Source of the DNA: Chelativorans sp. Marseille-P2723
GTDB lineage: Bacteria; Pseudomonadota; Alphaproteobacteria; Rhizobiales; Rhizobiaceae
Reading direction: 5' to 3'
Assembly: GCF_902809845.1 (NCBI RefSeq)
Contig: NZ_CADDWI010000013.1
Location: 620,001-684,000, forward strand
DNA: 64,000 nucleotides
Shown here: positions 36,341-56,062 of the stretch, one piece after another
Numbering within the stretch: the first letter of the stretch is position 1
Layout: the number at the start of each line of letters is the position of its first letter
The notes under the pieces: model-generated
What the model was told of the DNA's origin: nothing
Database searches by the model: none
The model's input: the letters and a program-made list of their open reading frames with translations, nothing else
Made by a program: the position numbers and the translations under genes

Positions 36341-36377
36341 TCGCTTCCTTAACGTTAAATCCAACAGGAGGAGTGTA

Positions 36378-37433: not shown

Positions 37434-37436
37434 AAC

Positions 37437-38219
37437 ATGCAAGGCGCCATCACCATTGAAGGGGTGGACAAGCGCTACATCAGTCGGGGGCGAGAAACCG
37501 TCGCCCTCGACAGCGTCTCCCTGAACATACAGCCCGGAGAGTTGGTTTCTTTTGTTGGCCCTTCGGGCTGTGGAAAGTCTACTCTCATGAATATGATTGC
37601 CGGCATCGTTCCGATGACCAACGGCAGAATCATCCATAACGGAAAGAAAGTTTCGGGCATCAATCGCGACGTCGGCTACATGACCCAGGCTGACAGCGTG
37701 CTTCCGTGGCGCACCGTGGAAAAGAATGTGGCGCTGCCTCTGGAATATCGTGGCGTGCGGACGCAGGAGCGCAAGCAGCGCGTTGATGAAATGCTGAAGC
37801 TTGTCGAGCTTGAAGGCTTCAACAAGTCTTTCCCGCGCGAGTTGTCCGGCGGTATGCGCAAGCGCGTCGCACTTGCGCAGATGCTAGCCTATAGCCCGAA
37901 CACATTGCTGCTCGACGAGCCGTTTGGCGCACTCGATGCGCAGTTGAAGATGGTGATGCAACAGCAGTTGCTCAACATCTGGCGTGAGCAGAAGAAGACG
38001 ATCGTTCTTGTTACGCACGATCTGTCGGAAGCTATCGCAGTATCAAATCGCGTTGTCGTTCTTTCCGGCCGGCCTGGGCGGATCAAGCATATCGAGAATA
38101 TCGACATCCCACACCCGCGAGATGTCTTCAAGGTGCGCTTCTTGCCTGAGTTTGAACGTGCCTATGACAGCCTGTGGGAGCAACTCTCCAGCGAGATAAC
38201 CAAAGGCGAAAGCCTGTAG
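37437..38219 (+). CDS. ABC transporter ATP-binding protein, NitT/TauT type
   Basis: A 260-residue ATPase with Walker A GPSGCGKST, Q-loop MTQADSVLPWRT, signature LSGGM, Walker B TLLLDEPFGALD and H-loop VTHD. The block order matches SsuB/TauB. It powers the importer formed with the adjacent binding protein and permease. Confidence 0.94.
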   Translation: MQGAITIEGVDKRYISRGRETVALDSVSLNIQPGELVSFVGPSGCGKSTLMNMIAGIVPMTNGRIIHNGKKVSGINRDVGYMTQADSVLPWRTVEKNVALPLEYRGVRTQERKQRVDEMLKLVELEGFNKSFPRELSGGMRKRVALAQMLAYSPNTLLLDEPFGALDAQLKMVMQQQLLNIWREQKKTIVLVTHDLSEAIAVSNRVVVLSGRPGRIKHIENIDIPHPRDVFKVRFLPEFERAYDSLWEQLSSEITKGESL

Positions 38220-38228
38220 GGGTTCGTT

Positions 38229-39068
38229 ATGCAAGTAGATGAAAGTGCGGCCGTCGGGACCGGCCTTAATACCGGCGGATCGTCAAAAGCCGTACTGGCC
38301 TATGAGGCTGGTCTAGAGCAACGCAAGATGATGGTGCGCGTCAGCCAGGTGCTTTTCGCCATTGTCTTTCTGTCGTTCTGGCAATGGGCTTCCGGCCGGA
38401 TCATCGATCCATTCTTCGTCTCTTCGCCACTTGCCGTTGGGGGCAGGCTTTATGAATGGACGCTGAACGGACAATTGTGGTCGCACTTGTCGGTGACGAT
38501 GCTGGCTACTGCGTTCGGCTTTTTTATTGGTGCAGGGATCGGCTTCGCACTTGGCTTGCTGTTTGGCAAATTTGCCTTCCTGGCCGAGGTGATGGACCCC
38601 TTCATCACGGCGCTTTATTCGATTCCCAAGCTGGCGCTTGCGCCATTGTTCATCATCTGGTTCGGAATCGGCATTGAATCCAAGATCGCTGTATCGGCTT
38701 CGATCGTGTTCTTTGTGGTGTTCCTCAACACCTTTGCCGGTGTGCGCGATGTGAGTCAGATTTATATACACTCCACGCAGATCATGGGCGCATCGAACTG
38801 GGCGGTGCTGCGCACCGTGGTAATCCCGTCGGCAACCGCGTGGGTGATTACAGGTCTTAAGGTCTCGGTTCCGTATGCTCTAGTGGGCACCGTCATCGGG
38901 GAGTTCATGTCGTCGAACCGCGGCATTGGCTACATCATTGCTCAGGCCACTGGCCTGTTCGATACCAACTCGGTCTTTGCCGGTATCGTTATCCTCATGG
39001 TGGTCGGAGCGATCATCAACGGGCTCTTGAAGAAGACCGAAGGTTGGCTGTTGCGCTGGAAGGAATAA
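38229..39068 (+). CDS. ABC transporter permease, NitT/TauT type
   Basis: A 279-residue inner-membrane protein with about six hydrophobic segments and the BPD_transp_1 coupling region (QIMGASNWAVLRTVVIPSA, the EAA-loop equivalent). Homodimer formation is expected because only one permease gene is present. It begins 9 bases after the ATPase stop. Confidence 0.93.
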   Translation: MQVDESAAVGTGLNTGGSSKAVLAYEAGLEQRKMMVRVSQVLFAIVFLSFWQWASGRIIDPFFVSSPLAVGGRLYEWTLNGQLWSHLSVTMLATAFGFFIGAGIGFALGLLFGKFAFLAEVMDPFITALYSIPKLALAPLFIIWFGIGIESKIAVSASIVFFVVFLNTFAGVRDVSQIYIHSTQIMGASNWAVLRTVVIPSATAWVITGLKVSVPYALVGTVIGEFMSSNRGIGYIIAQATGLFDTNSVFAGIVILMVVGAIINGLLKKTEGWLLRWKE

Positions 39069-39227
39069 TGGCTTCCGGCAGTCAACGGGCTTGATCAGGA
39101 AAGGGCTCAGCGCCGCAATGGTGCTGCGCCCTTTCTCGTTTTCCACCCCTTAACAGGTATCGCGACCGATCCGGCAATGCCGGATCTTGGCAGTGCGATA
39201 CGCCTTCCCTTTTCCCGAGGATCAACG

Positions 39228-39953
39228 ATGAGCGATGAGGCCCATCCCGATATTCAGGCTCTAAAAGACCGGATCGGCAAACTTCATCAAGCAAGAGGTT
39301 ATCTCTTGCCGCACCATGGTGCGATGGCGGTGGCCGCACCCGATCTGCAGGAAGCCTATCTTGCGATGTACCGGGCGCTGACGCTGACGGATCGTCACCT
39401 GTCGCCCTTCGAGCGTGAAGCGGTATGGATCGCTATACTGATCGCGGCACGCGAGGCTATCGGGACCCACCATGTCGAGCTGTTCCTCGAAGCCGGGGGG
39501 AGCGAGGTACAGATGCGCTACCTTACGAAGCTGTGCGCTTTCGGGCTTGGCGTAGGGTCCTATGAATTCATGGATACCGCCTGGTCCGAAATGTTTCCGT
39601 CACTGAAGGGCATTGTGGCCTATCGGGAGGATTTTGAAGCGCTGCTCAACGACGGACTTCTAGCAGCGGATGTGGTGCATCTAGCGCTTGCCGCCCTCCA
39701 TGCTGCAAGCGGCAATAAATGGGGATTGCGGGCACATATCCGCGCCCTTTACGAACTGCAGCCGCGCGAGGATGCCCTGGTCGAGGCGTTGAGTCTGATC
39801 ATGTGGCCCGTGGGGGTGAACCATTTTCTGGACGCATGCGGTGTCTGGGTCGAGATGATGAAGTCCGGCGAGGTCACACCGTCGGAGCGTTTTCGTGTCT
39901 GGGCCGATCTGCCGCGCCAGGATGGCCATGACGCCAGCCATCTGAAGGCGTGA
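39228..39953 (+). CDS. Carboxymuconolactone-decarboxylase/AhpD-fold family protein, copy 2
   Basis: A 241-residue paralog of the protein at 32659: the N-terminal ARGYLLPHHGAMAV block and the GTHHVELFLEAGGSEVQM helix align with copy 1. It also lacks a CxxC pair. The ATG at 39228 follows CGAGGA. Its stop is close to the amidase start, so the two are coupled. A role in processing the same class of substrate as the amidase is inferred from position only. Confidence 0.75.
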   Translation: MSDEAHPDIQALKDRIGKLHQARGYLLPHHGAMAVAAPDLQEAYLAMYRALTLTDRHLSPFEREAVWIAILIAAREAIGTHHVELFLEAGGSEVQMRYLTKLCAFGLGVGSYEFMDTAWSEMFPSLKGIVAYREDFEALLNDGLLAADVVHLALAALHAASGNKWGLRAHIRALYELQPREDALVEALSLIMWPVGVNHFLDACGVWVEMMKSGEVTPSERFRVWADLPRQDGHDASHLKA

Positions 39954-39964
39954 CGGGAATGGCG

Positions 39965-41350
39965 ATGAAGACCGATTTGCAGCGGCTCGGCCTTGCGGAT
40001 CTCCGCGATGGTCTTGCCAAGGGCTGGTGGTCCAGCCGTGATATTGCCGAAGCCTATCTGGCGCGGATCGCGGCACTGAACCCGCAGCTAAACGCATTCG
40101 CTCTGGTGATGGCGGATGAAGCGCTGGCGGATGCCGAGGCGGCCGACGCCCGCCGGGCGAAGGGCGAGAGCCTCGGCACGCTCGATGGCTTGCCCATCGC
40201 CGTAAAAGATGTGTGCGATATTGCCGGCACCCCGACTGGCGCCGGTGTGAAAGCATGGGCAAACCGCATCGCCCAAAGCACCGCTCCGGTAATCGAACGA
40301 CTGCGCTCTAAGGGAATGGTGATCCTTGGCAAGACCAATATGGTCGAACTTGCGCTTGGGGGTTGGGGTACCAATCCTTTCATAGGAACGCCGCTCAACC
40401 CTTGGGACCGGTCGGAGCCGCGCGCGCCGGGAGGGTCATCGAGCGGGTCTGCCGTTGCTGTTGCCGCGGGGCTTGTCCCGGTCGCCCTCGGCTCGGATAC
40501 CGGAGGCTCCGTTCGTCTTCCGGCGTCGTTCAACGGCCTGAGCGGGATGAAGACCACGCCGGGGTTGATTCCCATAACCGGAACATTCCCCCTCACCGCA
40601 CATCTTGATACGATTGGCTTCCTCGCGCGCCGTATCTCGGACGTCATCGAGATAACAGACGCGGTGAGTGAGCCGGGGGCACCAGTCCTTGCGGCGAAGC
40701 CCTTTCCAGAAGGGAAAGAACCGCTGGCGGGGCTTCAGTTAGCCATGATCCGGGATGAGGATTTGCCCGGCGAGGTGGACAGAGCCGTCCGCGAGGCGGT
40801 GGCGCAGGCAGCAGAAACCCTGCGCAGTCTTGGGGCCGTCGTGGAGGAGGTCGCGCCGCCTTTCGATTTTGCGGAGCTGCTGGCCGCAAATGGACGGATC
40901 ATCCTGTATGACGCATGGCGGCTTTACCAGGCGCATGTCGAGGATCTCGACACGCCCTGCGATCCGGCGGTGCGTGAGCGGCTGTTCATGGCGCGCGAGA
41001 TATCAGAGGCTGATTACAATCATGCACTGGAGCAGCGCGACCGTGCCTGTGCTGAATGGGCGGCATGGGTTGCCCATTGGCCGGGAGGATTGCTGCTCCC
41101 ATGCACTCCAACGCCCGCTCCGACGCTCCGCTCACTTGCTTCGGGCTGGTCATCATGCGCGCTGCTGACCGCCGCTGGCAACTTCGTCGATGCGGCAACG
41201 ATGTCGCTGCCGATCGGGTTTACATCGGAAGGCCTGCCAATCGGTGCGCAGCTCATGGGGCCGGCCTGGTCCGAATGGCGGCTGGCAGCGATCGGTGACG
41301 TCTTCCAGCGTGTGACCGACTGGCACTTGCGCTGCCCTTACAGAACATAA
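39965..41350 (+). CDS. Amidase (amidase-signature family)
   Basis: A 461-residue Ser-cisSer-Lys amidase: Lys81 in PIAVKD, cis-Ser in the GGSSSGSAVAVAAG glycine-serine loop (about 157-169), and the nucleophile Ser182 in SDTGGSVRLPAS. The family hydrolyses a wide range of amides, including GatA, indoleacetamide and malonamate substrates. The start is uncertain: GTG 39950, ATG 39959 and ATG 39965 are in frame, and only the last has a normally spaced CGGGA. Last gene of the plus-strand run. Confidence 0.9.
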   Translation: MKTDLQRLGLADLRDGLAKGWWSSRDIAEAYLARIAALNPQLNAFALVMADEALADAEAADARRAKGESLGTLDGLPIAVKDVCDIAGTPTGAGVKAWANRIAQSTAPVIERLRSKGMVILGKTNMVELALGGWGTNPFIGTPLNPWDRSEPRAPGGSSSGSAVAVAAGLVPVALGSDTGGSVRLPASFNGLSGMKTTPGLIPITGTFPLTAHLDTIGFLARRISDVIEITDAVSEPGAPVLAAKPFPEGKEPLAGLQLAMIRDEDLPGEVDRAVREAVAQAAETLRSLGAVVEEVAPPFDFAELLAANGRIILYDAWRLYQAHVEDLDTPCDPAVRERLFMAREISEADYNHALEQRDRACAEWAAWVAHWPGGLLLPCTPTPAPTLRSLASGWSSCALLTAAGNFVDAATMSLPIGFTSEGLPIGAQLMGPAWSEWRLAAIGDVFQRVTDWHLRCPYRT

Positions 41351-41393: not shown

Positions 41394-42251
41394 TCAACCG
41401 TCGTATTTTGCCCCGAGGGCCAGCATTTCAGGCGTTCCGATAACCTCGTTCAGTCCCTTGAAATCATACATCCGGTCCTGGAAGGAGGCATTGCTGCCTG
41501 TTGCCTTCAGTTGAGCGTAATAGTCGCCGGCGGTGCGCGCTAATGCGCGTACGATGCCGCCGGGGAAGATCACCAGCCTGAAGCCGAGCTTGCCCAGATC
41601 CTCCGCCGAGGAGATCGGCGTATCGCCCCCTTCGACCATATTGGCCAATAGCGGGATCCTTGCCCCGAACCGTTCGACGATGCCGCTCATTTGCTCGCGG
41701 TTGCGGGGTGCTTCGATGAAAAGGATATCGGCTCCGGCCTCGACATAACGCTCCGCCCGCTCCAGCGCCGCCTCGAATCCTTCAACCGCAATGGCATCGG
41801 TACGGGCGATAATGAGGGTCCCAGCGCTTCTGCGCGCATCGGCTGCCGCTTTAACCTTGCCCACCATTTCAATAGTGGGAACGAGGGCCTTGTCCTGCAG
41901 GTGGCCACAGCGCTTCGGAAGGGTCTGATCCTCGATCTGCAACGCACCTGCGCCGGCATTTTCATAAAGCCTTACTGTGCGCTGCACGTTCAATGCATTG
42001 CCATGGCCATTGTCCGCATCCACGATCAGTGGCACATCCACCCGGTCCGCAATAAGGCGGATGGTGTCTGCCATTTCTGTCATGGTGACCAGCCCGATAT
42101 CCGGACGCCCCAGCCTGGTATAGGCCACGGCCGCCCCCGATACGTAGAGCGCGCTGAAACCGGCAGCCGCTGCAATCTTTGCGGTTAAGGGATCATAGAC
42201 CCCAGGTGCCACTAGCGGGCTTGCGGCTTCCAATGCACTCATGACGGACAT
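41394..42251 (-). CDS. Isocitrate lyase/PEP mutase superfamily C-C lyase
   Basis: A 285-residue TIM-barrel lyase. The catalytic loop KRCGH is at residues 113-117 with Cys115, and the metal-binding VDADNGHG is at 77-84 with IEDQ at 107-110. An intact Cys loop fits the 2-methylisocitrate lyase, 2,3-dimethylmalate lyase and oxaloacetate hydrolase group rather than PEP mutase. It should cleave a 2-hydroxy (alkyl)dicarboxylate into a 2-oxo acid and a smaller acid. AAGGAG lies before the ATG. Next to GntR, LeuC-like and LeuD-like genes. Confidence 0.88.
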   Translation of the reverse strand: MSVMSALEAASPLVAPGVYDPLTAKIAAAAGFSALYVSGAAVAYTRLGRPDIGLVTMTEMADTIRLIADRVDVPLIVDADNGHGNALNVQRTVRLYENAGAGALQIEDQTLPKRCGHLQDKALVPTIEMVGKVKAAADARRSAGTLIIARTDAIAVEGFEAALERAERYVEAGADILFIEAPRNREQMSGIVERFGARIPLLANMVEGGDTPISSAEDLGKLGFRLVIFPGGIVRALARTAGDYYAQLKATGSNASFQDRMYDFKGLNEVIGTPEMLALGAKYDG

Positions 42252-42489
42252 GTTTTTTGCGCTCCTTTCAGTCCAGATTTGCGGCTCGTATGGCTTTGCC
42301 CGCTATTGATATGCCCGGACCCCCGGGCCGGGGTACCGGTGAGGACGATAAAGAAAGACGTAGCATTTAGGCCGATCCCGTAAGGGCTCACTGCTTTTCG
42401 CGGCAAACCCGCGCAGGTGATCAGCCACGCATCCTTTGGGGGAATCAAGCATAGGACAGGCGGTGGACCCTCGTTCTTCTTGCAAAGTA

Positions 42490-42505
42490 GTATTAATAAT
42501 AATAC
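42490..42505. promoter_or_regulatory. AT-rich palindrome, GntR operator candidate
   Basis: GTATTAATAATAATAC is self-complementary at 14 of 16 positions and lies in the spacer between the lyase gene and gntR. It stands out sharply from the GC-rich surroundings. Confidence 0.5.
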
Positions 42506-42647
42506 AAAAAGACAATAGAGCATTATCAAAGGGATGGTAGGCAGAAATGCCGCCGAAAGACGGATCGCGAACGGGTAGGTACCCCCAGATTCAAGCGTCC
42601 GCGGTTCAGCCACCGTTATGCAATAGCTGGGATCCGCGGTACTAGAG

Positions 42648-42664
42648 CTATTGTATAATAATTG
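42648..42664. promoter_or_regulatory. AT-rich site before gntR
   Basis: CTATTGTATAATAATTG carries the half-site TATTGTA found in the perfect palindrome at 35038-35056 and lies 55 bases before the gntR ATG. It could be a -10 region, an autoregulatory operator, or both. Confidence 0.4.
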
Positions 42665-42718
42665 GTGGATCGTAACAAACTGAGGAGCGCACATAGGGAC
42701 ATGCGCGGGGACGTTCAA

Positions 42719-43483
42719 ATGGCCGCGATTTCTTCGCCGACGCCGCTTTATCATCGTATTTACGTCGTTTTGCGCGAACGACTGGTAAGCGGATATTATC
42801 CCGCGGGAAGTCTTCTGCCCAGCGAAGCGGAGTTGCAGGAGAGCTTCGAAGTCAGCCGTATAACCATACGCAAGGCCATGGAACTGCTGGTCCATGAAGG
42901 GCTCATTGAGCGCAAGCGCGGTAGTGGCACCTATGCGGTGGAACGTCGAACCACATCGGATTTCGCCAAGAGCTATGTCTCGGACGTCCACGACTTGCTG
43001 AGCTATCTGAGCGCAGTCGGCCTCGGCACCAGCTTGCGGGTCATTTCTTCGGAAATGAAGGAGGCGCCCGCGCGCATCTGCAAATTGATGGATTGTGCGC
43101 CGCAAGACGAGCTGCATTGCACCATGCGGGTGCGCAATCTGGACGGGCAGCCTTATTCGCTGTCGCTGGCCTATCTGCTGCCGGAAATCGGCAAGAATAT
43201 CGATCGCGAGGGGCTGGCGACGACAGCCATGATCGACCTCGTGCAGCGGAACGGTGCAGTCGTGAATAGCGTCGAGCAGGTTCTGACCGCGACGCTTGCC
43301 GACGAGACTATCGCCCGGCACCTGCAAACTCCCGTCGGCGCGCCCGTCATGCGTGTGACCCGGGTGTTCTGCGGGCCTGACAAGAGGCCGTTCTATATAG
43401 CCGAGATCTTCTATCGTTCCGACCGTTATGAGTACCGCGTCCTGTTGCAGCGCAACCATGACAAGACGTTTCAGATAAGCTGA
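42719..43483 (+). CDS. GntR-family (HutC/UTRA) transcriptional regulator
   Basis: A 254-residue regulator: N-terminal winged helix (about 8-70) with PLYHRIYVVLRERL, LPSEAELQESFEVSRITIRKA and the wing GLIERKRGSGTYA, then a UTRA ligand-binding domain (about 95-245). UTRA domains bind small metabolites, often the pathway substrate. The ATG at 42719 is preferred because of GGGG 7 bases upstream; ATG 42701 and TTG 42662 are in-frame alternatives. It is divergent from the lyase gene and convergent with leuD, so it is the obvious local regulator. Confidence 0.92.
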   Translation: MAAISSPTPLYHRIYVVLRERLVSGYYPAGSLLPSEAELQESFEVSRITIRKAMELLVHEGLIERKRGSGTYAVERRTTSDFAKSYVSDVHDLLSYLSAVGLGTSLRVISSEMKEAPARICKLMDCAPQDELHCTMRVRNLDGQPYSLSLAYLLPEIGKNIDREGLATTAMIDLVQRNGAVVNSVEQVLTATLADETIARHLQTPVGAPVMRVTRVFCGPDKRPFYIAEIFYRSDRYEYRVLLQRNHDKTFQIS

Positions 43484-43500
43484 CCGCCAAGGCGTAAGAA

Positions 43501-43529
43501 CGGCTGCTTGCTCCTCGCTCCAGCAGCCG
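43501..43529. terminator. Hairpin between convergent gntR and leuD-like genes
   Basis: CGGCTGC and GCAGCCG form a 7-bp stem with a 15-base loop, 17 bases after the gntR stop. No T tract follows, so termination is not certain. Confidence 0.4.
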
Positions 43530-43580
43530 CCTGTGTGCTTCTGCGAGTCTCCCGTCGGTAGCCTTGCCCCGGCCGCGTGA

Positions 43581-44195
43581 CTATCTGTCCAGCCAAGGGC
43601 ATTCCTGCATCCGTTTCGCCTCGAAAGCGGTGATCTGATCCATCAGGCTAAAGGTCATTTCCATCTCATCCAGCCCCTTCAGGATGCACTCGCGCGCGAA
43701 CGGGTCGATGCTGATCGGGAACTGGCCGAGATCGGCGGGAAGCGTAAGCTGTTCCGCCTCAAGATCGACTGTCACCTCGGCTTCGGGATGGGAAGCCAGA
43801 TAGCTGGCCAGAGCCTCGCAATGTTCACGCGGCAGGCGAACCGGCACCAGCCCGTTCTTCAAGGCATTATTGTAGAAGATATCGCCGAAGCTTGGTGCAA
43901 TCAGGGCACGGATCCCCGCGTCGATCAGGGCATATACCGCGCCTTCCCGAGACGAGCCACAGCCGAAATTGTCTTCCACCAACAGGATGCGTGCCTGCTC
44001 TGCGCCGGGGCGGTTCAGCGGGAAATCCGGGTTCAGATTGCCATCCGAATCGCGCCGGATGTCATGAAACAGGAATTGCCCGTAGCCCTGTGCACGGTCG
44101 GCTTTCAGAAAGCGGGCCGGAATGATCTGGTCCGTATCGCAGTTCATGCCGGGAACTACGACGACGGTGGAGGTTTCTCGAGTAAAGGCTTTCAT
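43581..44195 (-). CDS. leuD: LeuD-like isopropylmalate isomerase small subunit
   Basis: The 204-residue swivelling-domain subunit of an aconitase-family hydratase: DTDQIIPARFLK near the N terminus, LLVEDNFGCGSSREGAVYAL in the middle and DPFARECILKGLDE at the C terminus, all standard LeuD blocks. The ATG at 44195 is 8 bases after the leuC-like stop. It could be the leucine enzyme, but the setting beside a lyase, amidohydrolase and GntR gene makes a catabolic hydratase acting on an alkylmaleate-type acid more likely. Confidence 0.9.
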   Translation of the reverse strand: MKAFTRETSTVVVVPGMNCDTDQIIPARFLKADRAQGYGQFLFHDIRRDSDGNLNPDFPLNRPGAEQARILLVEDNFGCGSSREGAVYALIDAGIRALIAPSFGDIFYNNALKNGLVPVRLPREHCEALASYLASHPEAEVTVDLEAEQLTLPADLGQFPISIDPFARECILKGLDEMEMTFSLMDQITAFEAKRMQECPWLDR

Positions 44196-44203
44196 CTTTT
44201 TCT

Positions 44204-45616
44204 CTACAGTCGCCTTATATCGGTGAGCATGCCGGTAATCGCCGCGCCGGCAGCCATGGCTGGGCTGACCAGGTGGGTGCGCGCGCCGGGCCCCTGACGG
44301 CCGACGAAGTTGCGGTTCGATGTTGAAGCGCACCGCTCGCCGGGACCGACAACATCGCCGTTCATCGCGGCGCACATGGAGCATCCGCTTTCGCGCCACT
44401 CGAAACCCGCTTCCTTGAAGGTTTGTGCCAGCCCTTCGGCTTCGGCCTGTTCCTTGACCTGGGTAGAGCCGGGAACGATGATCGCCTTCACCGTTGCCTT
44501 GCGCCCTTTGAGCACGGCGGCAGCGGCGCGCAGGTCCTCGATCCGGCTGTTGGTGCAAGAGCCGATGAAGACCTTGTCGATCTTCAGTCCTTCGAGTGGC
44601 GTACCAGGCACAAGATCCATGTATTCCAGAGACTTTGCCGCGGCGCTGCGTTTCTCCACACTGGTGAAGCTTGCCGGGTCAGGCACGCGGCCAGTGATGG
44701 GCATCGCATCCTCGGGCGAGGTACCCCAGGTCACCATCGGTGCAATCTCGTTGCCGTCCAGAACCACCTCGCGGTCGAACTCCGCACCTTCGTCGGTCGG
44801 CAGCAACTGCCACTGTGCCAACGCCCGGTCCCACTCCTCTTCCGACGGCGCATACTGACGTCCGCGAATATAGGCGTAGGTCGTTTCATCGGGTGCGACC
44901 ATTCCCAGCCGCGCAGCAGCCTCGATGGACATGTTGCAGAGCGTAAGACGCCCCTCGATAGAGAGGTTCCTGACCACCTGTCCCGCAAATTCGATGGCAT
45001 GGCCGCCGGCACCGCCAGAGCCGATCTTGCTGATTAATGCCAGCATCACATCCTTGGCCGAGACGCCCTGGCCAAGCGTGCCGTTGATGTTGACGCGCAT
45101 CGTCTTCGGGCGGACCTGCCACAGGGTCTGCGTTGCCAGAACATGCGCATTCTCGGACTGGCCGATGCCGAATGCGATAGCCCCCAGCGCCCCCTGAGTC
45201 GAGGTGTGGCTATCCGAACAGACGATAGTCAATCCTGGAAGGGTGATCCCCTGCTCTGGCGCGACGACATGAACGATGCCCTGTTGACGGCTGCCAATGG
45301 AGAAATGCCGTACTCCGCCCCAGGTCATGTTTTCATCGAAAGTGTCGATCATCCGAGCGATCGCGGGGCTGGCTGCATCGGCGGAGGAGCGGCCGAGCGT
45401 CGGCACATAATGGTCAGCGACGCCGAAAATCTGTTTCGGCCTTCGCGGCTTGAGCCCGCGGGATTTCAGATGCGCAAAAGCGTGAAAGCTCCCCTCATGG
45501 ATGAGGTCGCGGTCGATATACAGCAATGACGGTCCCGCCGGGTGGCGGAGTATTTCGTGGGCCTCCCAGATCTTGCCGAACATGGTTCGGCGAGAAGGGG
45601 CGTTGGCTTGCACCAT
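44204..45616 (-). CDS. leuC: LeuC-like isopropylmalate isomerase large subunit
   Basis: A 470-residue aconitase-superfamily protein with the 4Fe-4S ligands in GSCTNSR and ESGCSMCAAMNGD, and the substrate region VCSDSHTSTQGALGA. The N-terminal part (SFHAFAHLKSRGLKPRRPKQ, then DHYVPT) and the WGGVRHFSIGSRQQGIVHV stretch differ from the usual leucine-pathway form, as in LeuC paralogs that act on other 2-alkylmalates. The ATG at 45616 fits family length; an ATG at 45643 is possible. It follows the deacetylase-fold gene by 76 bases on the same strand. Confidence 0.9.
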   Translation of the reverse strand: MVQANAPSRRTMFGKIWEAHEILRHPAGPSLLYIDRDLIHEGSFHAFAHLKSRGLKPRRPKQIFGVADHYVPTLGRSSADAASPAIARMIDTFDENMTWGGVRHFSIGSRQQGIVHVVAPEQGITLPGLTIVCSDSHTSTQGALGAIAFGIGQSENAHVLATQTLWQVRPKTMRVNINGTLGQGVSAKDVMLALISKIGSGGAGGHAIEFAGQVVRNLSIEGRLTLCNMSIEAAARLGMVAPDETTYAYIRGRQYAPSEEEWDRALAQWQLLPTDEGAEFDREVVLDGNEIAPMVTWGTSPEDAMPITGRVPDPASFTSVEKRSAAAKSLEYMDLVPGTPLEGLKIDKVFIGSCTNSRIEDLRAAAAVLKGRKATVKAIIVPGSTQVKEQAEAEGLAQTFKEAGFEWRESGCSMCAAMNGDVVGPGERCASTSNRNFVGRQGPGARTHLVSPAMAAGAAITGMLTDIRRL

Positions 45617-45692
45617 GGCGTGCTGTCTTCCTGTAAGTGACATCCAAGTGTGTAACGTGCCGTGCATTTGCCAGCACGTTACAGTTTACTGC

Positions 45693-46616
45693 TCAGGCCT
45701 GGGCTTTGAACGCGTCGGCTATTTCACCGGCGGGAGCAGTCCAGACACCTTCGTGCGAAAGCATGTAGTCCAGCACCTCGCGGAGATATTCGATGCGGTA
45801 CGGCATGCCGGACACCCAGCTATGCAGAGGCAGGCTCATCACGCGGCCGCCATATTCGGCGCTTTCGCGATAAAGCACGTCGAAGCGATCCTTCACCTGC
45901 TGCACCCACTCTGGCTCCGAATGGAAGTATTCGTCCGCGACCACACGGTCATCCGTCTCATAGGCCAAGGGCATGGCCAGAATGGCGCCTTCCTTGGTCC
46001 GCATCGCGTAAGGCATGTCGTCATTGGCCCAATCGAGTGCATAGCGCACACCGTTCTTCACCAGCAGTTCCGGCGTGTTGAAGCTTTGCGCCCGGCCGGG
46101 CGAGAGCCACCCGTCGACCTTCTGGCCCGACACCTTGCGCAAGAGTTCGAGCGTTTCGGCGATGATAGACCCTTCCTCATCGGCGGAAAGTCCGGAATGA
46201 TGGACCTTGCCCATGTCGAGCCCGTGAGCCACGACCTCATGCCCATCGGCCACGACGGCGCGAATAAGGGCCGGATAGCGAGCGGCAATGATGCCGTTGA
46301 TCGCCATGCTCGTGCGAAGGCCCTTCTCCGCCAGCAATCGCAGCACGCGATAAATGCCGATCCGGTTCCCGTAGTCGCGATTTGTGTAATAGCGGAAGTC
46401 CGGGTAGGGCATTGACAGCGCGCCTGGAGCCTTGAAGGGCTTGGCCGGCATGTCGAGCGGGAAGTGCTGCACGTGAGTAACGATCGACAATGCGATCCGC
46501 GCGCCGCCTGGCCACGTTACAGGCTTTCGCTGGAATAGGTCGGACCAGTCGTAACGGTCGTGATCCATGCCGTAGCGGCGGGCCGGATACTCCAGATAGC
46601 TATCGGGCAAAGACAT
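45693..46616 (-). CDS. PuuE-like polysaccharide-deacetylase-fold hydrolase A
   Basis: A 307-residue protein of the polysaccharide deacetylase superfamily, closest in pattern to PuuE-type allantoinases: GGARIALSIV first strand, GHEVVAHGLDMGKVHH, GWLSPGRAQ, WANDDMPY and a late His in SLPLHSW. The classical NodB TFDDG metal motif is absent, which argues against carbohydrate deacetylation and for hydrolysis of a cyclic amide or ureide. No signal peptide. Its ATG overlaps the stop of the upstream paralog by one base (TGATG). Confidence 0.82.
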   Translation of the reverse strand: MSLPDSYLEYPARRYGMDHDRYDWSDLFQRKPVTWPGGARIALSIVTHVQHFPLDMPAKPFKAPGALSMPYPDFRYYTNRDYGNRIGIYRVLRLLAEKGLRTSMAINGIIAARYPALIRAVVADGHEVVAHGLDMGKVHHSGLSADEEGSIIAETLELLRKVSGQKVDGWLSPGRAQSFNTPELLVKNGVRYALDWANDDMPYAMRTKEGAILAMPLAYETDDRVVADEYFHSEPEWVQQVKDRFDVLYRESAEYGGRVMSLPLHSWVSGMPYRIEYLREVLDYMLSHEGVWTAPAGEIADAFKAQA

Positions 46617-47563
46617 CAGCGGTTCTCCTGTTCGGCGGCATGCGCGGCCATTGCCGCCTTCATCGCGTCATAGGCGCCGCTCGAGTGATAGGCCTCGGCT
46701 ATCTCGCGGCCCGTGGCCTTCCAGACCCCGTCATGCCCGGCGATATATTCGATGGCTTCGGCGAACGCATCGATCCGGTGCGGCTGCCCCACGAGATAGG
46801 GGTGCAGAGGGATGCACATCACCGTACCGCTCTCCTCGCCTTCCTTGTAGAGCTGGTCAAACTGCCGCTTGATGATTTCGCCGTAGTGGCGGGGTGTCGT
46901 CTTCTGCGTGTTGTAGACGATCACGTCGTTCATCTCGAGCGAGTAAGGCATGGAGATGAGCCTGCCGGTCTTGACCTTCACCGGCATCGGCTGATCGTCA
47001 TGGAACATGTCGCAGGTGTACTGAATCCCCGCCTCGGACAGAATGTCCATCGTCCACAGGTTGTTCGAGAGGGCCGGAGAGAGCCAGCCGGCCAGTTCCT
47101 GCCCGGTGTGCTTGCGGACGGTCTCGAACGCATCGCGGATGATCTCCCGCTCCTGCTCGATCGTCATGTTATAGACGTAGCGCGTGTTGTAGATCCCGTG
47201 CGAAAAGAACTCCCAGCCCCGGTCAGCGCAGGCTCGGATGATCTCGGGGTGATGGTCGCACAAGGCGACGTTCAGCGACACGGACCCGCGAAAGCCCGCC
47301 GCGTCCATTGCAGCCATCATGCGCTGCCAGCCGGCGCGGTTGCCGTAATCGCGATGCGAATACTGCAAGACATCCGGATTCGGCCGCGGCCAGGGGGTGC
47401 GCGTCGGATTGTTCGGTGGATTGTACTCGTAGAACTCGATGTTCGGCGCGATCCAGACCGCGATCTTCTTTCCGCCTGGCCAGGTGATCTTCGGCCTGTC
47501 CGGCCAGGGCAGATAATCGTAAAGGCCCAGATCCGAGCGGATCTCATTCGTTGCGCTGCTCAT
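46616..47563 (-). CDS. PuuE-like polysaccharide-deacetylase-fold hydrolase B
   Basis: A 315-residue paralog of the downstream gene: WPGGKKIAVWIAPNIEF, WEFFSHGIYNTRYVYN, GWLSPALSNN, MFHDDQPM and IPLHPYLVGQ. The second His of the metal-type motif seen in hydrolase A (KVHH) is Tyr/Asn here, so the two copies may not be equivalent; one may be catalytic and the other regulatory, or they may take different substrates. Translational coupling to hydrolase A suggests a complex. The gene starts 1 base after the cysteine hydrolase stop. Confidence 0.82.
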   Translation of the reverse strand: MSSATNEIRSDLGLYDYLPWPDRPKITWPGGKKIAVWIAPNIEFYEYNPPNNPTRTPWPRPNPDVLQYSHRDYGNRAGWQRMMAAMDAAGFRGSVSLNVALCDHHPEIIRACADRGWEFFSHGIYNTRYVYNMTIEQEREIIRDAFETVRKHTGQELAGWLSPALSNNLWTMDILSEAGIQYTCDMFHDDQPMPVKVKTGRLISMPYSLEMNDVIVYNTQKTTPRHYGEIIKRQFDQLYKEGEESGTVMCIPLHPYLVGQPHRIDAFAEAIEYIAGHDGVWKATGREIAEAYHSSGAYDAMKAAMAAHAAEQENR

Positions 47564-47564
47564 C

Positions 47565-48242
47565 TCAGCGAGCCTCAGGCTGATAGGCTTCGTACCACTC
47601 GATCACTTCCGAGACGGGAACGACATCGCCATACTTCACCAAAATATCGTAGAGATTCGCGAAGTGCGGGCTTTCGTGCTTGTCCGCCACGCCCTCCTCC
47701 GGGACGATGACCCGATAACCGCGCGAGATCGCGTCGACAACGGTGGCGCGCACGCAGCCGGAGGTCGAGCCGCCGGTCAACACCACGGTGTCGCACTGAT
47801 GCCAGACCATGAGCGACTGCAAATTGGTTTCATGGAAGGCCGAAGGCATGCGCTTGTTGACGATGATATCGCGTACCCGGTCGACCTGAAGGCGCGGATC
47901 GAGCTCCGACCGGCGCGAACCGACCTTGATGTTCTGCAGCGAATCCGGCGTGTTCGTGCGGGTGCCCCAGACGCCGCAATCCTCGCCCGATTCCATATAC
48001 GCAACATAGGTCCAGGTTATTGGCAGGCCCTTTTCGCGGGCAATACCGGAGATCTGGTTCACATAGTCGATCTGCTTTGGATCGGTCTCATAGGCGGTGG
48101 CGAACTCACCGACAGCAGTATAGGCGCATTGCAGATCGATGTTGATCAGCATGGGCTTGCGGCCAAAGCCAAACCGCTTTCGGCTCGGGTTCGCCTTGGC
48201 ATGTTCATACATCTGACGCGCCGTAAGGGATGATAGCTCCAT
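47565..48242 (-). CDS. Isochorismatase-family cysteine amidohydrolase
   Basis: A 225-residue cysteine hydrolase with the family triad Asp36 (INIDLQ), Lys130 (VNKRMPSAF) and Cys163 (GGSTSGCVRAT). Biochemically known members with this triad include N-carbamoylsarcosine amidase, ureidoacrylate amidohydrolase, maleamate amidohydrolase and nicotinamidase, all releasing ammonia or carbamate from a small amide. The ATG at 48242 has AAAGGAGG upstream, the strongest ribosome site of the cluster. It heads the minus-strand run of hydrolase B, hydrolase A, leuC-like and leuD-like genes. Confidence 0.9.
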   Translation of the reverse strand: MELSSLTARQMYEHAKANPSRKRFGFGRKPMLINIDLQCAYTAVGEFATAYETDPKQIDYVNQISGIAREKGLPITWTYVAYMESGEDCGVWGTRTNTPDSLQNIKVGSRRSELDPRLQVDRVRDIIVNKRMPSAFHETNLQSLMVWHQCDTVVLTGGSTSGCVRATVVDAISRGYRVIVPEEGVADKHESPHFANLYDILVKYGDVVPVSEVIEWYEAYQPEAR

Positions 48243-48902
48243 CGGTAAATCCTCCTTTTTGTTCAAGCTCGTGCGCTGAATGCCCTGCATCGCTCGCTCA
48301 CGCATGGGAAGCTGCACAGGTCAGCAAAATCCCGCTCGTCATATTGTTATCTTTTTATATCATTTGTAAAGTGGAGCTACGGGGAAAATAGCCCATAGAC
48401 AGAAGGCCGCTACAATGGAAGCGAGGAATCGCTGCCAATAGGGCTCAAGCGTAATGGAATTTACGCAGTTTCCATTCGGTGATCCAGAGGTACGGGCTGC
48501 GAACACCGCTCATTCTTTCTTTCTCTCTCCTTCTCTTTGACGGTCTTGTCTAGTGGTGAGACATCTCTCCAGCCGAGGAAGGGTAAGTCTTCCGACCGGA
48601 TACGCCGTTTCGGCAGCGTCGAGCTAATGCTTTGGCGCTGCCTACCGACGACGCCCGGTCCTTCAGGTGTCAATGCGGATAGATGGCTCCCTCCCGCTAA
48701 GGTTGACCCTAAATGGATTGTGTATATAAAGGAGCTTTAAGGCATTCCGCATAGCGGCGTGCCTTGAATTGAATATTGTCGCGCCAAGCCAGACATGACT
48801 TGCGGATAAACAGCAGGGAGAACTCCAGGCGTATCTCATGCCAATATCGGCATGATTCATGCTGCTATTGCATGAACATAGTTGCGCTCGATACAATGGC
48901 TG
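48243..48902. other. Gene-free spacer between divergent operons
   Basis: This 660-base region probably holds the promoters of the cysteine hydrolase operon (minus) and the betaine-type ABC operon (plus). An AT-rich stretch at about 48340-48372 lies roughly 100 bases before the minus-strand start. A 26-base pure pyrimidine tract occupies 48513-48538. Short open frames exist but match nothing I know. Confidence 0.5.
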
Positions 48903-50084
48903 ATGAAATCTAAGATAGCCGGAAATAATATATACAAGATCTTCGGGGAAGATCCGTCACTAGCGCTCGACCTTCTCGCGGCGGGGAAAAGCAAGGACGA
49001 AATATACGAGGTCACGGGCCAGGCCGTCGGCGTTCATAACGTGACCTTCCGCGTAGCGGAGGGAGAGATTTTCGTCGTCATGGGCCTTTCCGGATCTGGG
49101 AAGTCTACGCTCGTCAGGATGATCAACGGTCTCATCAAGCCGAGTTCTGGCGAAATTCTCATTGATGGGATCGATGTAGCAAGCTGCTCGGACGAAGAGC
49201 TACGCACCATCCGCCGCGAAAAGGTTGCGATGGTGTTCCAGCACTTCGCTCTTTTCCCCCACAAGACGGTAGTCGAGAACGTCGCGTTCGGGTTGAAGAT
49301 ACGGGGCGTCAAGGCCGCGGAACGGCGTGAGCGGGCGCAGTCGGCGCTTGAGCAGGTGGGCCTTGGCGCGCGTGGCGACAGCTATCCAGACGAGCTTTCG
49401 GGTGGCATGCAGCAGCGCGTGGGGCTTGCCCGCGGGTTGGCCTCGGAACCTGAAATCCTGTTGATGGACGAGCCTTTCAGTGCGCTCGACCCGCTCATCC
49501 GCAGCGACATGCAGCAGGAACTTCTCGAATTGCAGCGGACGCTGAAGAAGACCATCGTTTTCATCACCCACGACCTGAACGAAGCGCTGACGCTCGGCAA
49601 TACCATCGCCATCATGCGTAACGGCGCGATCGTGCAGACCGGAAACGCTGAGGAGATCGTCGGAAATCCTGCAAATGCTTATGTCGCGGCGTTCACGCGA
49701 GACATCGACCGGTCGCTCGTCTTCAAAGCCGGTAGCATCGCCCGGCCGCCCGATACGATTGATCTTGGCACCGATATACAGTCGGCTCTTGCTCACATGG
49801 AGGAAACAGGCGCCGATGCGGTCCATGTTCTAAAAGGGGGCAAGCTTGCAGGCATTATAACCTACAAGGCCGCGAACGCAGCTCTGCGGGAAGGACGTGC
49901 GCTTAAGTCCGCCGTGTTGGAGGAGTTTCCCTCGACATCTCCACAATCACGGCTGTATGATCTCTACCTGCTTGCAGAGGCGGGCCTACCGATCGCGCTG
50001 ACGGATGACGCCGGCGAACTTATCGGGGTCGTACGGCCGCAGGACGTCTTCCAGCAGCTTGCGGTAAGGGGAGCATCAGCATGA
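48903..50084 (+). CDS. proV: Glycine betaine/proline-type ABC transporter ATP-binding protein
   Basis: A 393-residue ATPase with Walker A GLSGSGKST, LSGGMQQRVGLARGL, Walker B LLMDEPFSALDPLIR and VFITHDLNEA, followed by paired CBS domains (about 275-390), the ProV/OpuAA layout in which CBS domains sense ionic strength. The start is uncertain: ATG 48903 has no clear ribosome site and a TTG at 48882 is in frame. Overlaps the permease gene by 4 bases. Confidence 0.92.
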   Translation: MKSKIAGNNIYKIFGEDPSLALDLLAAGKSKDEIYEVTGQAVGVHNVTFRVAEGEIFVVMGLSGSGKSTLVRMINGLIKPSSGEILIDGIDVASCSDEELRTIRREKVAMVFQHFALFPHKTVVENVAFGLKIRGVKAAERRERAQSALEQVGLGARGDSYPDELSGGMQQRVGLARGLASEPEILLMDEPFSALDPLIRSDMQQELLELQRTLKKTIVFITHDLNEALTLGNTIAIMRNGAIVQTGNAEEIVGNPANAYVAAFTRDIDRSLVFKAGSIARPPDTIDLGTDIQSALAHMEETGADAVHVLKGGKLAGIITYKAANAALREGRALKSAVLEEFPSTSPQSRLYDLYLLAEAGLPIALTDDAGELIGVVRPQDVFQQLAVRGASA

Positions 50085-51013
50085 TGAGCCCATCCGATTT
50101 TCTCACACTTCCCTTTGACGACTGGGTCAATTCCCTGGTCAGGGACTGGCTGGTGCCGAATTTCCGTCCGTTCTTCCGGTCGATGCAGTGGCCGGTTACG
50201 CAGGTGCTTAACGGGCTATCGGCATTTCTCAATGCCACGCCGATGCTCGTGTTCACCCTTGCACTTGCTCTGGTTGCATGGCGTACAGCCGGGAAAGGGC
50301 TGGCCCTTTTCACTATCGTAGCGCTCTCCTTCATCGATGTGATCGGGCTTTGGCCGGAAACAATGACGACGCTCGCCATGGTCGTCACCGCCGTTCTGTT
50401 TTGCGTGGTTCTCGGTATTCCCCTTGGCGTGCTCGCTGCTCGCACCGAAGTTTTCCGGGCGATTCTTCGCCCGATCCTCGACATCATGCAGACAATCCCC
50501 TCTTTCGTCTATCTGGTGCCCATCGTCATGCTTTTTGGCGTCGGGGTTGTGCCTGGCATCATCGCCACAATCATCTTCGCTCTGCCTCCCATAATCAGGC
50601 TCACTGACCTTGGCATCAGGACCGTGCGGGAGGATCTGATTGAGGCCGCGATGGCTTTCGGCGCGACACCGTGGCAGATGCTTGTGGAGGTGCAGTTCCC
50701 GCTGGCTCTGCGCACCATCATGGCGGGGCTGAACCAGACGCTGATGCTGGCGCTCTCGATGGTGGTCATCGCGGCCATGATCGGCGCGGGCGGACTGGGG
50801 CTGACGGTCTTCACGGGATTGGGTCGTCTTGATGTGGGCAACGCGACCGCGGGCGGAGTGGGTATCGTGCTGCTTGCCATCATTCTCGACCGCATCAGTC
50901 AGGCACTTGGTGAAAGACGGATGGTGCAGGTCCCCTCGCTTCTGGAAACGATGCGATCTCTTTTCTCGCTGCGGGGGCAAAAGCCGGCGGCGGAAGCCAA
51001 AAGGGCAGGCTGA
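50081..51013 (+). CDS. proW: Glycine betaine/proline-type ABC transporter permease
   Basis: A 310-residue inner-membrane permease with about six to seven hydrophobic segments and the coupling motif EAAMAFGATPWQMLVEVQFP. The N-terminal LNATPMLVFTLALALVAWRT and the IPSFVYLVPIVMLFGVG helices follow the ProW/OpuAB pattern. Translationally coupled to proV by ATGA. Confidence 0.93.
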   Translation: MMSPSDFLTLPFDDWVNSLVRDWLVPNFRPFFRSMQWPVTQVLNGLSAFLNATPMLVFTLALALVAWRTAGKGLALFTIVALSFIDVIGLWPETMTTLAMVVTAVLFCVVLGIPLGVLAARTEVFRAILRPILDIMQTIPSFVYLVPIVMLFGVGVVPGIIATIIFALPPIIRLTDLGIRTVREDLIEAAMAFGATPWQMLVEVQFPLALRTIMAGLNQTLMLALSMVVIAAMIGAGGLGLTVFTGLGRLDVGNATAGGVGIVLLAIILDRISQALGERRMVQVPSLLETMRSLFSLRGQKPAAEAKRAG

Positions 51014-51094
51014 TCCTGCCCGACCGCGTCTTGCGCGGTTCTCATGTCCCCTCTCTCAGGCGGGGGCGCAAGAAGAAGACAAGGAGAGAGTACC

Positions 51095-52138
51095 ATGACC
51101 AAGCGCAGTTTATCACGGCTCGTCGCCGTTACACTCGCCGCAGGCACCATGCTGGCAGCACCAATACCCGCCGCGCAGGCACAGGACGAGCCCGGTGCGG
51201 GCATCACCGTGCGAATGGCCCAGGCCACCTGGGATACTGGCTGGTTCGAGGCCGCAATTTACAAGCAGCTTCTGGAAAAGCTTGGCTATACGGTTGAAGG
51301 ACCAACCACGCTTGACAATCCGCCATTCTACCAGGCTGTCGCCCAGGGCGATCTCGACCTTTGGGTGAATGGCTGGTTCCCGCTGCACAACTCCTATGAA
51401 ACCACCTACTCGCAAGGCGCAGAACTCGTTGGCTACGTCGCAAAAGGCGGTGCGCTTGAAGGCTATCTCGTCGACAAGGCTTCAGCCGAAGAATTCGGCA
51501 TCACCAACCTGGAGGATTTCAAGCGGGATGAGGTGAAAGCGGCATTCGATCGCGATGGCGACGGCAAGGCGGACATGGTTGCCTGTCCTCCCGGCTGGGG
51601 CTGCGAGATCAACATCGAGCACCACCTCGATGCTTACGATCTGCGCGACCATGTTAACCCGATCAAGGCGAGCTACGCCGCTTCGATGGCGGACGCAGTT
51701 GCAGCATATAACGAGGGTACGCCGATCCTGTTCTATACCTGGACGCCGAACTGGACCGTGGACACGCTAAAGCCAGGTGAGGACGTTGTCTGGATCGAGG
51801 TTCCCGAAGTGAACCTGCCGGAAGAACTGGCTGATCTTGCCGATGCGGCAACGCTCTCCGGCGTTACGGGCTGCGTCAACGATCCTTGCAAGCTCGGCTT
51901 CCCGGCCAACGATATCCGACCGGTCGTGAATTCCGAATTCCTCGAGGCCAACCCCGCCGTTCGCGCGCTGCTCGAAACGGCTTCGATCCCGATCCAAGAC
52001 ATATACGCGCAGAATGCACGGATGAATGACGGGGAAGGCAGCCAGGAAGATGTCAACCGTCATGCCGCCGAGTGGATCGAGGCGAACGCCGATCTGGCGA
52101 ATGGCTGGCTTGAAGCAGCACGCGCAGCCGCAGAATGA
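51095..52138 (+). CDS. proX: Glycine betaine/proline-type ABC transporter substrate-binding protein
   Basis: A 347-residue periplasmic OpuAC/ProX protein with a Sec signal (MTKRSLSRLV to AQA, cleavage near residue 29). The mature part has the LGYTVEGPTTLDNPPFYQAV block and LWVNGWFPLHN, with several Trp and Tyr residues that could form an aromatic quaternary-amine box. Two Cys pairs (CPPGWGC, CVNDPC) may form disulfides. AAGGAGAG precedes the ATG at 51095. The exact betaine or choline-like ligand is not readable. Confidence 0.93.
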   Translation: MTKRSLSRLVAVTLAAGTMLAAPIPAAQAQDEPGAGITVRMAQATWDTGWFEAAIYKQLLEKLGYTVEGPTTLDNPPFYQAVAQGDLDLWVNGWFPLHNSYETTYSQGAELVGYVAKGGALEGYLVDKASAEEFGITNLEDFKRDEVKAAFDRDGDGKADMVACPPGWGCEINIEHHLDAYDLRDHVNPIKASYAASMADAVAAYNEGTPILFYTWTPNWTVDTLKPGEDVVWIEVPEVNLPEELADLADAATLSGVTGCVNDPCKLGFPANDIRPVVNSEFLEANPAVRALLETASIPIQDIYAQNARMNDGEGSQEDVNRHAAEWIEANADLANGWLEAARAAAE

Positions 52139-56012: not shown

Positions 56013-56062
56013 CCCCCGGCTCCCGCCATGGTCAAACACCCTACATAGATGCAGGAGGAACT

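Follow-up and report, generated by a model that had tools for sequence, protein, structure and literature searches.

Cyclic imides, among them tetrapyrrole fragments, drugs and fungicides, are common compounds. To our knowledge, only few bacterial pathways for substituted imides are genetically defined. The imidase of Pseudomonas putida YZ-26 is a known cyclic imide hydrolase. The nicotinate fermentation of Eubacterium barkeri includes dimethylmaleate hydratase (DmdAB) and dimethylmalate lyase. Known lyases of the isocitrate lyase (ICL) superfamily release 2-oxo acids from malate-type substrates, and K(K/R)CGH is the signature of ICL/phosphoenolpyruvate (PEP)-mutase superfamily lyases. In the nicotinate breakdown of Aspergillus, as described in passages of PMC9304392, HxnM opens an imide and HxnN hydrolyses the half-amide; both were assigned from deletion strains and metabolites, and HxnM is related to HP0310 and has the NodB fold. 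PuuE and HP0310 are described as tetramers, PuuE being without a metal site (passages of PMC3084791 and PMC10967932). In this study, we analysed a window of 64,000 nucleotides (C13:620001-684000) of the 3.77 Mb genome of Chelativorans sp. Marseille-P2723. It carries a conserved cluster encoding a cysteine amidohydrolase (CysH), two adjoining PuuE-like proteins (PdaB and PdaA), a LeuC/LeuD-type hydratase, a C-C lyase and a GntR/UTRA regulator. CysH, PdaA, PdaB and, further below, FAD2, RacA and RacB are names coined in this analysis.

We suggest with moderate confidence, on the basis of sequence comparisons, that the cluster is an operon for the catabolism of a small, substituted cyclic imide, whose ring is most likely five-membered. 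For every step there is a chemical precedent; the combination appears to be undescribed. No open-access description of the cluster was found in titles, the opening parts of abstracts and a few passages, most subscription journals lying outside this coverage. Likewise, we found no open-access paper joining imidase, deacetylase, isochorismatase and isopropylmalate dehydratase, and none on a gene cluster for the catabolism of cyclic imides, succinimide or maleamate.

A conserved gene cluster around two PuuE-like genes

Five genes follow one another on the minus strand: cysH (47565-48242; PF00857, isochorismatase), pdaB (46616-47563) and pdaA (45693-46616; both PF01522, Polysacc_deac_1), a leuC-like gene for the large subunit of an Fe-S hydro-lyase (44204-45667; PF00330, Aconitase) and a leuD-like gene for the small subunit (43581-44195; PF00694, Aconitase_C). 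The divergent regulator gene (42719-43483, plus strand; PF00392 and PF07702) lies between leuD and the gene of the ICL/PEP-mutase superfamily lyase (41394-42251, minus strand; PF13714, PEP_mutase). All of these are open reading frames (ORFs) at the coordinates given, and the gene content which an original prediction, made from the letters of this DNA, had reported for 41394-48242 is confirmed with the support of Pfam. That prediction had also given gaps of at most 76 bases among the five genes and had described the lyase and the regulator as adjoining them. With the starts used here the gaps are 1, -1, 25 and 8 bases, within the limit; the start of LeuC is unsure (45667 or the ATG at 45616), and only the latter gives a gap of 76 bases. 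The regulator gene does stand next to leuD, but the lyase gene is not contiguous with the five genes, as the divergent GntR gene intervenes.

Linkage was scored in 109 loci, namely 57 from a PdaB scan of genome contigs, 11 annotated plasmid loci and 41 regions of sampled genomes (45 minus four duplicates of named records, L098-L101). The four duplicates were also dropped from the residue-conservation rows and the Pda tree and were kept in the LeuC tree and in the LeuC/LeuD letter counts, which thus hold a few duplicate rows; rows that broke length bounds or identity limits or contained stops were not used in the alignments. The loci are related, were chosen for having PdaB, have short flanks in some cases and are not independent trials. 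PdaA adjoins PdaB in 103 of the 109, and 93 have CysH within 2.5 kb. Fifty loci gave a LeuC-type hydratase within 10 kb, 57 a C-C-cleaving enzyme and 48 both; 42 have a flavin dehydrogenase (FAD2). Every one of the 50 hydratase loci holds the whole CysH-PdaB-PdaA trio. Two of these are without a cleavage tail: in L023 the sequence stops 6.4 kb downstream, and in L102 the lyase lies just past 10 kb. Sorted by the identity of PdaB to that of the window, a hydratase is present in 28/28 loci at 80% or more, 6/7 at 70-79%, 8/40 at 60-69%, 8/23 at 50-59% and 0/11 below 50%. The order CysH, PdaB, PdaA, LeuC, LeuD is kept in all 28 loci of the uppermost tier, and in the diverged tiers the linkage to a hydratase holds with different hydratase lineages. 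As a control, the surroundings (about 20 kb) of 16 genes from 15 genomes that score as PuuE above the TIGR03212 cut-off were searched. With queries and limits unchanged, 0/16 had CysH, and the count was likewise 0/16 for a hydratase, for a cleavage enzyme (lyase or HMGL, of the HMG-CoA-lyase family), for FAD2 and for a racemase. The linkage of the cluster genes is real: the conserved neighbourhood, for which a search of genomes had been proposed along with the original prediction, occurs in many of the 109 loci and in none of the control loci. The control supports the linkage and tells nothing about the substrate.

Concerning distribution, PdaB matches at E 1e-70 occur in 35 of 385 genomes class-wide and in 10 of 398 phylum-wide, and 6 of 199 sampled Rhizobiaceae genomes, the own genome included, have a PdaA relative of at least 65% identity. 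None of 12 other genomes of the genus gave a tandem PuuE-like pair (TIGR03212, E 1e-30), a weak negative, as this limit missed the PdaA of a second trio in the own genome. These counts show a patchy operon, in the way expected of a horizontally moved trait. By name, several carriers, for example Rhizobium sp. Leaf262, are plant-associated, and others (Oligella, Paenalcaligenes, Paracoccus) are not.

The partners of the trio vary. Hydratases beside it are of the bacterial LeuC type, of the LeuC_sp1 type, a separate lineage occurring with HMG-CoA-lyase-like genes, or of the HacA/archaeal type (421 and 172 aa), the latter pair being found in B. plantarii and others. The cleavage tail, of a kind that cleaves hydroxy acids in both forms, is either the lyase or a CoA-transferase together with an enzyme of the HMG-CoA-lyase family; in Acidiphilium, the HMGL passes its subfamily cut-off and the CoA-transferase is nearest the succinate-glutarate CoA-transferase model, below its cut-off. 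The same trio has acquired at least three lineages of hydratase and two cleavage routes. Near-identical trio clusters (97-99% identity over ten neighbouring proteins) lie on plasmids of Sphingobium sp. TomTYG65 and Sphingomonas sp. JE1 (L094 and L180) and carry two LeuCD pairs, an HMGL and a lyase; no relevant literature on plasmid pJE1 was found, judged by title.

Fuller operons, which were outside the view of the original prediction, occur in relatives and carry a dehydrogenase and two racemase relatives. In two members of the Rhizobiaceae (L251, L252), leuD is followed by a Liv-type transporter, the lyase, FAD2, two racemase-family genes and a GntR gene; in a third member (L102/L253) these genes are all present, and the lyase follows the racemases. 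FAD2 is nearest the flavocytochrome c and TcuA models, below their cut-offs. The two proteins of the Asp/Glu/hydantoin-racemase family, RacA and RacB, are 49% identical to each other, and the PDB entries nearest to RacB are a putative hydantoin racemase and an allantoin racemase. No FAD2 or racemase gene was found in the 64-kb window.

Some other trios are accompanied by acyl-CoA genes, tripartite transporters, amidases, hydantoinase A/B or sulphur genes. The trio looks like a general ring-opening and amide-hydrolysing module, if its neighbours are a guide, and the hydratase-lyase tail would mark the branch studied here. The second trio of the same genome (C13:547694-549480; L097:6989-10913) has an amidase and a peptide-type ATP-binding cassette (ABC) transporter after it and a molybdopterin oxidoreductase and a glyoxalase-like protein before it; MetC-like and DadA-like (FAD enzyme) genes are near, and a similar set recurs in L103 and L104. 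In Arthrobacter, an asparaginase and a hydroxylase of the xanthine-dehydrogenase type adjoin a more distant Pda pair without CysH.

An alignment of 12 upstream regions and a scan of the window revealed a conserved promoter-like element of 30 bases (48342-48371, minus strand), some 100 bases ahead of the start of cysH. It is clear by eye in 10 of the 12 regions, the window included, around it the regions have otherwise diverged, and the full element occurs once in the window. The element may serve as promoter and operator. GntR-family homologues adjoin the cluster in several relatives. A search for a GntR operator common to the upstream regions of cysH and the lyase gene found no shared 13-mers at one mismatch, nor did it find shared 12-mers in the gap between the GntR gene and leuD.

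Relatives and conserved residues of the cluster enzymes

As had been predicted, PdaA and PdaB are nearest PuuE-like proteins by sequence and by predicted fold. The best NCBIfam model for both is TIGR03212 (PuuE), which all 34 members of Pda set A1 match (best E 1.9e-44); PdaB scores 128.3 bits and PdaA 130.1 bits against a cut-off of 424.6, about 30% of it. The AlphaFold2 (AF2) model of PdaB (predicted local distance difference test, pLDDT, 71.8; predicted template modelling score, pTM, 0.78) has the PuuE entries 1z7a and 3cl6 as its nearest PDB structures (Foldseek E 2.6e-12), and that of PdaA (pLDDT 83.0, pTM 0.86) has 3s6o and 3cl6 (Foldseek E 8.3e-20). The fold and the SHG and LH motifs of the PuuE-like NodB superfamily are present. 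N41, E43, H122, D185, D189, D190, N212, D213 and H254 of PdaB are identical in 34/34 aligned rows; its N126 occupies the place of the second His of HxxxH, the model being poor nearby. A PuuE row beside this alignment was in a wrong frame and was discarded. PdaA keeps H139, D195, D199 and D223 in 34/34 rows and H265 in 33/34, while its position 131 has 19 His and 13 Asn among the 34, and position 50 is Gln in 17 and Glu in 17.

In a tree of 85 rows, most PdaA (34 rows) and most PdaB (28 rows and 3 others) form separate clades; divergent PdaA-like rows lie outside the main PdaA clade, and PuuE stands apart, one PdaB-labelled row (31% identity) sitting next to it. Judged by these sequences, PdaA and PdaB are an old co-travelling pair of paralogues. 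Since such a pair with one member varying at a conserved position suggests a heteromer, the two more probably form one heteromeric ring opener than enzymes of two consecutive steps. In this respect the original pathway logic, which fits the gene set, has to be modified. Membership in the PuuE allantoinases themselves was rejected, because the scores are far under the cut-off, because both window proteins fall outside a branch (Shimodaira-Hasegawa-like approximate likelihood ratio test, SH-aLRT, 99) holding 7 PuuE rows in a quick tree without bootstrap, and because the genome has a separate PuuE at C9:306306.

CysH has the D/K/C triad of isochorismatase-family cysteine amidohydrolases. D36, K130 and C163, the very residues named at the outset, are each kept in at least 95% of 94 aligned rows, the window included. 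Its best matches among PDB sequences are 4l07 (2.7e-30), which we take to be Ami, the N-carbamoylsarcosine amidohydrolases 26st (3.4e-30) and 1nba (4.1e-28), and 3ot4/3uao (1.1e-19); it stays below every NCBIfam equivalog cut-off listed. The entry 3uao is named NicF (maleamate amidohydrolase) in a passage of PMC5806882. The assignment of CysH to the family of maleamate amidohydrolase thus stands as regards family and triad, but half-amide and N-carbamoyl substrates are not told apart by the sequence matches.

The Fe-S cysteines C371, C429 and C432 of LeuC, which mark it as an Fe-S hydro-lyase, are present in 36/36 rows. The window pair is not the only leucine-type pair of the organism, a point on which the original prediction had made itself depend: a second LeuC (C13:237103) and a second LeuD (C13:126048, listed with one TAG inside the match, the stretch used for comparison being without a stop) lie elsewhere in the genome. 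In a tree of 65 rows, the window LeuC falls into a 40-row clade of cluster LeuCs only (support 99/91), apart from the non-cluster LeuCs, among them those of the same genomes. Letters near the catalytic motifs are changed: LeuC position 158 (STHGA to STQGA) is Gln in 39/47 cluster rows versus His in 17/18 non-cluster rows, LeuD position 85 (SSREH to SSREG) is Gly in 35/48 versus His in 15/16, and LeuD position 88 is Tyr in 41/48 versus Trp in 16/16. The canonical LeuC set is impure in that one member (G373 C1:2989099) falls with the LeuC_sp1 type and has a trio about 11 kb away. A leucine-pathway enzyme was rejected on the second LeuC/LeuD, the cluster-only clade and the changed letters; the cluster LeuC/LeuD proteins, annotated as leucine biosynthesis, probably hydrate another compound. 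In one locus (L176, G621:C1:625311-626698) the cluster LeuC is in two pieces with a stop.

The lyase has KRCGH at residues 113-117, each letter occurring in at least 95% of 46 aligned rows, and so carries the K(K/R)CGH motif of the ICL/PEP-mutase C-C lyases. Its score with the PrpB (methylisocitrate lyase) equivalog is 286.7 bits, below the cut-off of 354.4.

Candidate pathway and competing explanations

From gene content, linkage, the separateness of LeuC, conserved residues and fold class, we infer every reaction, the heteromer and the substrate as follows. PdaB as the proposed catalytic subunit and PdaA as its proposed partner would constitute a heteromeric PuuE-like amidohydrolase opening the imide ring to a half-amide. 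CysH, the proposed half-amide amidohydrolase, would release ammonia from the half-amide and leave an alkylmaleate-type dicarboxylate. The LeuC/LeuD pair would then act as an alkylmaleate hydratase and hydrate the double bond to give an alkylmalate, which the KRCGH lyase, as the proposed alkylmalate lyase, would split into a 2-oxo acid and a carboxylate; the GntR/UTRA regulator would control the pathway. In relatives, the flavin dehydrogenase would turn an alkylsuccinate or succinimide into the unsaturated compound, and the two hydantoin/allantoin-racemase-like proteins would let saturated, chiral imides enter. Dehydrogenase and racemases would serve a saturated imide with stereocentres; an unsaturated imide would need no more than the shorter set of the window genome. 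This logic of ring opening, ammonia release, hydration and cleavage is reinforced by the variety of hydratases and cleavage enzymes that accompany one and the same trio. The earlier observation is thus confirmed, and its interpretation as a whole is partly supported.

Several findings weigh against an imide pathway of this kind. No cluster protein reaches an equivalog cut-off for a proposed reaction, whereas LeuC and LeuD (taken from 44180) pass the leucine-pathway models TIGR00170 (641.3 vs 560.25 bits) and TIGR00171 (174.8 vs 116.25 bits). CysH is equally close, by its matches, to maleamate-type enzymes and to N-carbamoylsarcosine amidohydrolase. The PdaB model is poor around residues 46-63 and 185-194. 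No hydratase is found within 10 kb in 59/109 loci (some with short flanks), which suggests that the trio also serves other routes, and some of the counted lyases are just 36-42% identical and may be other members of the family. Finally, no RacA/RacB match was found in the window genome, a positive-control genome giving both, and its best FAD2 match is just 33% identical.

An unlikely alternative is that the ring is a hydantoin or another ureide. PdaA/PdaB would then be a hydantoinase, CysH an N-carbamoyl-amino-acid hydrolase and the racemases hydantoin racemases, with LeuCD and lyase working on the acid skeleton. The match of CysH to 26st and 1nba, as good as that to 4l07, the nearness of PdaA/PdaB to PuuE allantoinase and of RacB to hydantoin and allantoin racemases, and a hydantoinase A/B pair beside a trio in Salipiger all fit it. 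However, release of an amino acid leaves a maleate-type hydratase and a malate-type lyase without an obvious job, and the trio is present in all 50 hydratase loci. For allantoin the genome has its own PuuE, which leaves room for other ureides.

Within the imide pathway, our best guess for the substrate, again from the genes, is an alkylated maleimide or succinimide that may stem from chlorophyll or haem. In its widest form, the operon would be a bacterial route for fragments of the pyrrole rings of chlorophyll, haem and bilins. A heteromeric imidase derived from PuuE would open them, and deamidation, hydration and cleavage would follow; this widest form we regard as speculative and rather improbable. 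Its substrates would be methyl-, ethylmethyl-, methylvinyl- or carboxyethyl-maleimides, with chiral succinimide forms in the fuller operons, and dialkylmalates would yield pyruvate or another 2-oxo acid and a short acid. Passages of PMC7318184 discuss methyl-, ethylmethyl- and methylvinyl-maleimide and haematinic acid as products of chlorophyll and haem and cite maleimides from senescent leaves and lake sediments, the study itself, according to these passages, having detected none. 2-Ethyl-3-methylmaleimide is reported from Spirulina (in a passage of PMC9227131). If tetrapyrroles are indeed the source, the operon would account for a final stage in the degradation of chlorophyll and haem that has so far been missing.

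A six-membered imide of the glutarimide type, such as 3-methylglutarimide, is improbable. In lineages with CoA-transferase and HMG-CoA-lyase-like genes it would be degraded via 3-hydroxy-3-methylglutarate to 3-hydroxy-3-methylglutaryl-CoA (HMG-CoA), as the scores of the two Acidiphilium proteins would allow, and the Aspergillus precedent concerns a six-membered ring. Against this, the window and most of the 50 hydratase loci carry the ICL-superfamily lyase instead, and the ring of the PuuE substrate is five-membered. That LeuCD is a duplicate leucine-pathway isomerase among unrelated neighbours is very improbable: the two proteins exceed the generic leuC/leuD cut-offs, but there are other LeuC/LeuD in the genome, the clade is separate, the STQGA and SSREG changes are present, and the linkage is conserved with several hydratase lineages and absent from the 16 control loci. 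Hardly any weight falls on polysaccharide deacetylases of cell wall or exopolysaccharide, for which the Pfam name PF01522 and weaker fold matches speak and which were rejected on the Foldseek matches of the AF2 models, PuuE and PuuE-like entries being nearest by sequence and fold, no signal peptide being seen by eye in the translations, and the neighbours being amidase, hydratase and lyase.

Whichever imide or amide it serves, the cluster offers an ordered, testable gene set with a probable two-subunit ring opener.

Surrounding genes and comparison with described systems

The cluster stretch is flanked by housekeeping genes, dnaK, dnaJ and pyrF on one side and miaB on the other (by eye). A transposase-like ORF (28683-29336) at the edge of the accessory stretch, also read by eye, is in line with regional mobility. 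Convergent with the lyase gene lie possibly associated plus-strand genes (36375-41350; Pfam) for an NMT1/SsuA-type ABC transporter, a CMD-family protein and an amidase. Their membership in the cluster is unsure; the set stands beside the trio in 0/57 loci of the first PdaB scan, partial matches being a single SsuB-like protein in L047 and L060 and an amidase in L004. Two CMD/AhpD-like proteins (38% identical; 32659-33360 and 39177-39953) flank a GMC-type oxidoreductase and an SDR (both by eye), an HbpS-like protein and the NMT1-type ABC transporter; together with the amidase (39950-41350) these genes resemble another catabolic set. Divergent from cysH is a ProVWX-like ABC transporter of the glycine betaine/proline type (48882-52138; by eye), and ProW/ProX matches beside the trio were found in none of the other loci of the first scan (57 loci). 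At 53970-58261, a hydantoinase/oxoprolinase-type HyuA-like gene (27% to that of Salipiger) precedes a second large gene, HyuB-like by position only. Neighbour ORFs around the loci were picked mechanically, some on the wrong strand.

With PuuE allantoinase (TIGR03212; 3cl6, 1z7a), the Pda proteins have the NodB-derived fold in common, and the SHG and LH motifs align; unlike PuuE, they are two adjoining paralogues, and the neighbourhoods of PuuE are without the cluster partners. CysH shares family and D/K/C triad with the NicF maleamate and the N-carbamoylsarcosine amidohydrolases and differs from them in its linkage to PuuE-like genes. The isopropylmalate/citramalate isomerase entries 4kp1, 4nqy and 3vba have large and small subunits related to the window pair; they are distant from it. 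The window pair belongs to the bacterial LeuC/LeuD type and has altered residues close to its catalytic motifs. The succession of a LeuCD-type hydratase and an ICL-superfamily lyase is that of the Eubacterium barkeri branch, and some cluster relatives have a LeuD/DmdB-type small subunit like it. Unlike that branch, the clusters read have no recognised pyridine or methyleneglutarate genes beside them, and entry would be by an imide or amide opener. For this entry the closest parallel is HxnM/HxnN: as far as the passages on the fungal pathway go, HxnM is compared with HP0310 (3qbu), which matches the Pda proteins more weakly than PuuE does, and imide opening by a NodB-fold enzyme is followed by hydrolysis of the half-amide, as we propose for PdaA/PdaB and CysH.

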